NCBI GenBank assembly: GCA_016875535.1
Contig: VGPF01000003.1
Coordinates: 1-64,000 of the forward strand
Direction: 5' to 3'
Source of the DNA: Chloroflexota bacterium
Lineage (GTDB): Bacteria > Chloroflexota > Dehalococcoidia > SHYB01
DNA length: 64,000 bases
The translations under genes were made by a program, and so were the position numbers. Position 1 is the first letter of the stretch. Each line of letters starts with the position of its first letter. The notes beneath the pieces were generated by a model, which had not been told where the DNA came from, ran no database searches, and worked only from the letters and a program-made list of their open reading frames with translations. Of the stretch, positions 1-44,622 are shown one piece after another.

Positions 1-66
1 GGGCGCACGGCCGCGCGCCTTGGCGGTCACACCTTCCCGGCTCGCTGTCCTGGCGAAGGCTTACAC
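1..66 (-). ncRNA. candidate structured RNA, copy 1 (runs off window)
   Basis: The 29-base core at 32-60 matches 43612-43640 at 27 of 29 positions, and both copies lie just downstream of a TTGACA promoter on the minus strand. On that strand the core begins CCTTCGCCAGG and ends GCCGGGAAGG, so CCTT can pair with AAGG. In copy 2 the closing bases are CCTT and GAGG, which still pair. No function is known to me. The transcript continues past the left edge, so it could also be the 5' leader of an unseen gene. Confidence 0.35.
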
Positions 67-71
67 GTAAA

Positions 72-101
72 GATATACCATGCCATCTGCGTAAGTGTCA
101 A
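72..101 (-). promoter_or_regulatory. sigma-70 promoter for the left-edge RNA
   Basis: On the minus strand a perfect TTGACA -35 box (96-101) is followed after 18 bases by TATATC (72-77). A TGG directly upstream makes it an extended -10. It would start transcription at about position 65, reading toward the left edge. Confidence 0.6.
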
Positions 102-43216: not shown

Positions 43217-43239
43217 AGGGGCGCGTGCCCCGCGCCCCT
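43217..43239. repeat. perfect 9-bp hairpin
   Basis: AGGGGCGCG and CGCGCCCCT with a 5-base loop. It lacks a T-tract. GCCCCTAC-type ends recur at several intergenic sites (46313, 46529, 48361, 49508, 56093). Confidence 0.5.
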
Positions 43240-43279
43240 ACAGGTTGTCCATCTTGTTGCCTCCTGATGTTTTGTTCAT
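43238..43279 (-). CDS. possible 13-residue peptide
   Basis: ATG at 43279 is preceded at normal spacing by AAAGGAG and encodes MNKTSGGNKMDNL before a TAG. It lies at the far end of the candidate RNA transcript. The good ribosome site is the only evidence. Confidence 0.2.
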   Translation of the reverse strand: MNKTSGGNKMDNL

Positions 43280-43668
43280 TCCGTCGGCTCCTTTCTTGGT
43301 TCTGAATGACTGAGTGGCGCGATGTGTGCGCAGGCGGCCCTTCTTTTCGAGTCTCGTTCCGCGAACGGAACGCCAAGTCCAATGCCCGCCGGTGGGCTGC
43401 ACGTTCACCCGGAGGTGAGCGTCCGCAGTTGTGCACAGCGACATCCGTCGGCCGTATGAACCTGGCGCGGTCGTCATCCTTTCGCCAAATTGTGCTCCGG
43501 AACAGCCAAGGGCCGCCTGCGTCTTTTCGACCACGGCAGTTCATGACCTGCCGCAATCGGGACAAAAAGAAAGGGAGACGTCCCGATGCGGGCGGAAGCC
43601 CGAGCGGGACGCCTCCCCGGCTCTCTGTCCTGGCGAAGGCGTGAGCGTAGCGATACGCTCACGAAACA

Positions 43669-43697
43669 ATACTAAACGGAGTAGGAGAGAGTGTCAA
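43669..43697 (-). promoter_or_regulatory. sigma-70 promoter of candidate RNA copy 2
   Basis: TTGACA (43692-43697), a 17-base spacer and TAGTAT (43669-43674) on the minus strand. Confidence 0.65.
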
Positions 43698-43811: not shown

Positions 43812-44622
43812 ATGCGCAGCCCTCTGACCACAAGAATTAACAGCAACCGAAGCCCAGAGTCTTCCGGCGGTTTTATATATCGGGGCCACGCTGAGGGCTC
43901 ACGGGAGAAGGCATGCCGAAAGCCGCGCCTTCTGGATCTTTTTTGTTGCGCGGGTGGAGCTGGGGTAGGCTACAGTCAAGCCGGGTTTGAGGTTGTGGGT
44001 GTGGACATCGACTCGCAGCCCAATTATCCATTTGCTTTTCTGCAGGCTGATGCACTCTCTCTCGATCCTGTGTTGATTACTCAGTTCGATGCAATCCACG
44101 CCCCTCTCCTCCTTGTCAGTCGTACTCCGACCTTGCGAAGCGTAATCGCAACGGCGATAAATGGCCGCGTTTGATCGAATTGGTACGTGACATGCTGCTT
44201 CAAATCGGACTGCCGTACGTTATCGAGAACGTGGAGGGAGCGCCCCTGCGAGACCCAATCGTTCTCTGCGGGACGATGTTCCCAGGTCTGCGCGTTTTAC
44301 GGCATAGGCTCTTTGAATCAAACTTTCCGATTCTTGTCCCGGCACACAGTACGCACCCCCGAGTACACACCTTCGATCTCGAAAGTCCCATTTCGGAAAG
44401 ACGAATGAGTGGACGGATTTCGTGCAAGTCACAGGAGGCGGAAACTGCTCTCTGGCAGCGGCGCGGTCGGCTATGGGAATTGATTGGATGAGCAAGGGGG
44501 AAATAAATGAGGCGATCCCCCCTGCCTACACGAAGTTTATCGGCGCACAGCTACTACAGTATCTGAGAATTTCCCGACAGGAACCAGTCGAAGCTTATGG
44601 CAACGCGAAGGCCGGGGTCTAA
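43812..44622 (+). pseudogene. C5-cytosine DNA methyltransferase, two frameshifts
   Basis: Three frames join into one Dcm-type methyltransferase. Frame 1 (to about 44102) has [20 protein letters not shown] and VVGVDID. Frame 2 (44105 to 44377) has the catalytic [14 protein letters not shown], then VIENVEGAPL and LFESNFPILVP. Frame 3 (from 44380) has RKSHFGKTNEWTDF, GGGNCSLAAARSAMGIDW and AIPPAYTKFIG. Each junction leaves two surplus bases (44103-44104 in a C4 run, and 44378-44379). Sequence error cannot be excluded. The base composition is less GC-rich than its neighbours, as for transferred DNA. Confidence 0.8.

Follow-up and report, generated by a model that had tools for sequence, protein, structure and literature searches.

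The conserved element at the left edge of the window (the whole stretch of 64,000 nt analysed here) is probably the 5′ end of one member of a gene family for large structured non-coding RNAs, which would act in trans as RNA. This view comes from comparison of the sequences: it showed that the copies have promoters of their own, covarying helices and a non-coding nature, and that they occupy intergenic slots shared by two species, in which their directions are sometimes inverted. The RNA family is previously undescribed, and we found no description of it in the open-licence literature; in kind it resembles OLE, GOLLD and ROOL.

Results

Copies in the window

The window holds two cores, at 32-60 and 43612-43640 in plus-strand coordinates, and the transcript is the minus strand. 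The cores differ at 2 of 29 positions, with 0 matches expected in 100 shuffles. The first-pass annotation had reported both of them, each with a TTGACA promoter, and we confirmed the coordinates and the minus-strand promoters. The features are as follows.

1-66, minus strand: 5′ part of the left-edge RNA copy, cut by the contig end, core 32-60 included
72-101, minus strand: promoter of the left-edge copy (-35 TTGACA at 96-101, -10 TATATC at 72-77)
43277-43662, minus strand: copy 2 of the large RNA, approximate extent, with ends predicted from the promoter position and the P1 arms
43669-43697, minus strand: promoter of copy 2 (TTGACA at 43692-43697, 17-nt spacer, TAGTAT at 43669-43674)
43641-43662, minus strand: small 5′ hairpin GUGAGCGUAUCGCUACGCUCAC, found in some copies only
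43612-43640, minus strand: conserved 5′ core GCCUUCGCCAGGACAGAGAGCCGGGGAGG
43560-43630, minus strand: long 5′ hairpin GGACARMSAG..CCUYCCCUUUUSUUUGYCC, covarying among copies
43508-43521, minus strand: 5′ arm of the closing helix P1, CGCAGGCGGCCCUU
43458-43467, minus strand: 5′ arm of pseudoknot helix b, CGCCAGGUUC, with letters unlike other copies and pairing kept
43437-43453, minus strand: conserved hairpin GGC-N-GAC-N4-GUC-GCY, here GGCCGACGGAUGUCGCU
43371-43380, minus strand: 3′ arm of pseudoknot helix b, GGACUUGGCG
43329-43342, minus strand: 3′ arm of the closing helix P1, AAGGGCCGCCUGCG
43250-43294, minus strand: A-rich 3′ tail with Shine-Dalgarno-like AAAGGAG and AGGAGG

Over 127 nt, the left-edge copy matches the end of contig C33 without a difference, and the RNA goes on in that contig; the copy there is full-length, running from P1 to P1′ within 454 nt.

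Other repeats were noticed in the window. Positions 161-186 belong to a dispersed repeat, CTCTGTGCCCTCGGTGG, with 40 places in the same genome at up to two mismatches (reversed control, 2). It often lies 100-300 nt upstream of RNA promoters (C4:24514, C6:67824, C9:8297, C12:21138, C34:267 and C64:8454) and is sometimes accompanied by T/C-rich TTCCTACNTTCC stretches. A short palindromic repeat, TAGGGGCGCGGGGCACGCGCCCCT, at 43220-43242 also occurs within peripheral loops or directly after several RNA copies. By eye, positions 43920-44100 resemble a fragment of a cytosine-5 DNA methyltransferase.

Conserved pairing

Alignment of the copies in the transcript direction revealed a 5′ hairpin, GGACARMSAG-CC-GGGRAGG...CCUYCCC-UU-UUSUUUGYCC, in which 91% of the cells are paired, compared to at most 66% in slid controls; AAACAG with UUGUUU in some copies, for example, corresponds to AGAGAG with UUCUUU in others. 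The 5′ arm of P1 follows this hairpin and the 3′ arm lies hundreds of bases downstream, so that the helix (14-22 bp) joins the ends of the RNA. In the 15 copies used for counting, P1 spans 207-746 nt. Compensatory changes were found at 12 of its 16 pairs, and both sides had changed in 45 cells, compared to 17.3 in shuffles. Paired cells made up 91.7% of P1, a level that none of 500 shuffles reached and that contrasts with 29-47.2% in slid controls.

The domain enclosed by P1 contains a block, GGCUCAC-NN-GCGAGNNUG-RC-N-GGCWGAC-N4-GUCGCC...GUGGGCC...NNCUCGC, that folds into two crossing helices and a hairpin. The helices follow the pseudoknot order a-b-a′-b′ (helix a, GGCUCAC/GUGGGCC; helix b, GCGAG-/-CUCGC), the hairpin inside them, GGC-N-GAC-N4-GUC-GCC, is almost invariant, and 91.4% of the pseudoknot cells are paired, compared to at most 44.4% in slid controls. 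In copy 2 of the window, P1 and one of the pseudoknot helices are retained although their letters differ. Outside the set from which helix b was derived, and from which copy 2 had been left out, this helix is kept with new letters in the window (CGCCAGGUUC/GGACUUGGCG), in C12 (GCGAACGU/ACGUUCGC) and in contig C192 of the same-genus genome G001 (CGAGCAUC/GAUGCUCG). The alignments were built from hand-chosen anchored blocks, a procedure biased towards pairing at the anchor, but the results for both types of control (slid and shuffled) and for the copies outside the derivation set argue that this bias does not explain the pairing.

The compensated pairing claimed by the first-pass annotation was found, though in other helices. 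Its closing stem of CCTT with AAGG or GAGG can be drawn but is not the conserved pairing: two copies (L138 and L140) retain GCCUUCGCC though its proposed partner is gone, and the GRAGG segment forms covarying pairs with a downstream CCUYCC arm. Nor is the RNA small, as had been supposed. The core is the front of an RNA with long-range and pseudoknotted helices, whose length predicted from sequence is approximately 290-820 nt across copies.

The copies differ in their arrangement. Class I copies carry the core and the long hairpin ahead of P1. Class II copies are without the core; behind their promoter, P1 lies nearly at the 5′ end, and AAGGAGG is followed first by a palindrome (GGAUCGAUCC, AGAUCGUACGAUCU or GGAUCGCGAUCC) and then by the pseudoknot. 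In a third arrangement, that of L138 and L140, GCCUUCGCCANGAC is kept and the hairpin is absent. Several loops contain other dispersed repeats.

Promoters, tails and coding potential

TTGAC lies within 75 nt upstream in 25 of the 27 full copies, which bears out the earlier suggestion of a conserved transcript start linked to a promoter; the other two carry TTAACA and TGGACA instead. The combination of a -35 box, a spacer of 16-19 nt and TAnnnT was found at 8 copies, compared to 0.1 in shuffles. At the other end, AAGGAG or AGGAGG occurs within 100 nt after P1′ in 16 of the 27 copies, compared to 1.6 in shuffles. Because no consistent start codon was found after these Shine-Dalgarno-like sites, our guess is that the tails are linked to the 3′ end of 16S rRNA rather than to translation.

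All three codon positions have similar shares of the substitutions, the lengths of many indels are not divisible by three, and open runs in the copies are about as long as in shuffles. Over P1, the pseudoknot and the 5′ hairpin, there are 87 G-U pairs compared to 21 A-C mismatches. This excess indicates that the transcript strand is the paired strand, since the complementary strand would show the reverse. Taken together, these results show that the family does not code for protein and that it is the transcribed strand that is structured.

At one place in the window's own genome (C1:58248, L142), a promoter and the 5′ module stand directly before a 255-aa ORF without a Pfam match. This place appears to be a leader-only derivative.

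Copy number and distribution

The census of copies rests on pattern and model searches. In the window's own 2.5-Mb genome, a degenerate core pattern found 13 exact places and 2 with two mismatches, another core pattern added one place at a contig edge, and a covariance model of the 5′ region added C1:58248 and C15:33313, which puts the core at about 18 places; reversed controls of the two core patterns had no matches in this genome. The pseudoknot-block pattern found 16 places there and 9 in G001, with no control matches in either, and a model of the pseudoknot core found 21 places in the own genome at E<1e-4. Combining both searches gave 32 places, two of them leader-only, and up to four of the 32 may be second halves of contig-split copies, giving a range of 28-32. 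G001, the only same-genus genome searched, has about 16 places. A lack of additional copies in related genomes would have refuted the first-pass annotation; the core is indeed present at several places in this second species.

The two genomes are the only carriers, and both are fragmented assemblies. A number of copies lie at the ends of contigs, which is what a repeat that breaks short-read assembly would produce. The searches further covered about 780 genomes, namely 391 other members of the class and 400 genomes drawn from the phylum, a draw that overlaps the class sample; their only matches, in coding DNA, were judged to be chance. The large phylum search used stricter filters, with which distant members could have been missed. 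The family is apparently restricted to one genus.

Several candidates were rejected. Pseudoknot-model matches in G521 and G656 were judged chance matches in coding DNA, and one-mismatch core matches in other class members were without the hairpin and promoter. In a contig collection, the core pattern had three matches, one of which was the same-genus MAG and two of which lacked the element; 29 matches in viral contigs were judged to be chance from sequence context.

Intergenic slots and direction

Seven orthologous intergenic slots, identified by blastp of the flanks and blastn, hold an RNA in both species. At four of the seven, the direction of the RNA relative to the flank is inverted: both flanks are collinear at G001:C4/window 43.6 kb and at C51/C12, and one flank supports the inversion at C48/C3:113 kb and at C109/C46. 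The direction is unchanged at C177/C2, C192/C53 and C7/C26. Several slots hold different subfamilies in the two species, and the C48/C3 slot holds the same subfamily, inverted. At nearly all copies, flanking inverted or direct repeats were not found above the level of shuffles, and hence none that could flip the unit. The copies precede genes of either direction, as judged from mechanical ORFs.

Near an apparently truncated RNA copy in G001:C177 (L034), part of the 5′ half of a tRNA was seen in duplicate just upstream of the seemingly intact tRNA.

Discussion

We suggest that each copy would be transcribed from its own sigma-70-like promoter, that P1 would join the 5′ and 3′ ends around a pseudoknot-cored domain, and that palindromes could serve as self-pairing loops between RNA molecules. 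A constant core, a closed 5′-3′ helix and expandable loops are probably the anatomy of a trans-acting scaffold RNA. The RNA may then be abundant and act in trans as a scaffold or an oligomer, and its tails may touch the 16S 3′ end. Copies would turn over inside fixed intergenic slots; given this turnover, whole units of the family are probably copied or moved as well.

Some of this behaviour could also be that of a selfish, non-autonomous mobile element, of which the folded RNA or single-stranded DNA is moved and whose structure and promoter serve spread and not the cell. Such an element would fit the 28-32 dispersed places, the nearly identical bodies that follow different promoters in C13, C33 and C8, and the presence of different subfamilies in the same slots with four of seven inverted. 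We consider it unlikely, because the own genome has no Y1 transposase (PF01797) or reverse transcriptase (PF00078) domain by a search in which control genomes were positive, with the caveat that a different type of enzyme could do the mobilising, or that its gene could be absent from the assembly. Nearly all copies also lack flanking repeats above chance, slots common to both species suggest old and retained positions, and retrotransposition at the RNA level would not copy a promoter that lies outside the transcript.

The first-pass annotation had thought of a riboswitch-like leader. If the copies were cis-acting leaders of downstream genes (riboswitches or attenuators), the 5′ hairpin and its U-tract would be a regulated terminator; a hairpin followed by UUUUCUUU is indeed present, in canonical form in G001:C42, and three places, the only ones that resemble leaders (C1:58248, C43:10685 and G001:C42), carry just the 5′ module directly before an ORF. 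For the family as a whole there is little chance that this is correct. The RNAs occur irrespective of which way the neighbouring genes point and of what kind they are: downstream neighbours vary and lie in either direction, the direction relative to flanking genes is inverted at four of seven orthologous slots, and no consistent position or direction upstream of functionally related genes was found. Moreover, a long P1-closed domain under pairing constraint follows the hairpin, and class II is without the hairpin. That the copies are DNA-level repeats of the REP or MITE kind, with P1 arms that are merely terminal inverted repeats, is very improbable despite the many copies and the position of the arms near the ends, because the arms vary yet remain complementary, G-U is far above A-C, crossing internal helices covary and promoters precede the copies. 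Glycine-riboswitch, B12-box and terminator-only readings were considered and dropped.

The window had 0 matches in Rfam 15 at the gathering threshold and nothing at relaxed thresholds, in agreement with the earlier opinion that no known family is recognisable and that similarity to a T-box or B12 box is weak. In eight loci with full copies, a search at E up to 0.5 found just two matches, both below the threshold and due to chance. T-box and cobalamin riboswitches share with our RNAs a promoter and then a conserved structured start, but neither was matched even at relaxed thresholds. The Chloroflexi-1 RNA motif (RF01698) is a structured RNA candidate of the same phylum (PMC2864571), but scanning the window and the full copies against Rfam did not report it. 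REP/REPIN or MITE units are likewise dispersed, intergenic, inverted-repeat units of many copies, whereas the RNAs are long, promoter-driven and covarying on the transcript strand, and no Y1 transposase domain was found.

As in large ornate RNAs, the predicted transcripts are long, non-coding and of conserved secondary structure including a pseudoknot. With OLE, GOLLD and ROOL they share large size, heavy structure, a non-coding nature, pseudoknots and palindromic symmetric loops. ROOL and GOLLD are carried by phages and prophages, in many cases close to tRNA islands (PMC12286853). The present family differs from these three in its lack of an Rfam match, its 28-32 chromosomal places per genome, its apparent restriction to one genus and its direction switching in slots.

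Palindrome changes in OLE and GOLLD have been used as evidence for homo-oligomer contacts; in OLE, symmetric-loop palindromes covary from GGCC to GAUC or AGCU (PMC12286853). In our copies, palindromes of at least 10 nt number 39, compared to 18.3 expected, and those of at least 12 nt number 19, compared to 4.9, with ordinary hairpins among them. The palindrome that follows AAGGAGG varies in its centre (none, GC or GUAC) and keeps its self-complementarity. By analogy, such changes may point to homo-oligomer contacts, but the independent variants are few and the result is suggestive only; the palindromes could be plain hairpins. We put forward only tentatively, and with considerable doubt, a self-assembling, homo-oligomeric multigene family of large RNAs, with about 30 loci in a 2.5-Mb genome, that would be recurrently replaced and inverted in fixed slots by a copying mechanism.

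The switching of direction in conserved slots is a genome dynamic without explanation. Large structured RNA classes are few in bacteria, and the functions of several of them are open questions. A single small genome with dozens of divergent paralogues yields a strong covariation record, and it could be tested directly in this family whether palindromes that covary are a sign of RNA self-assembly.
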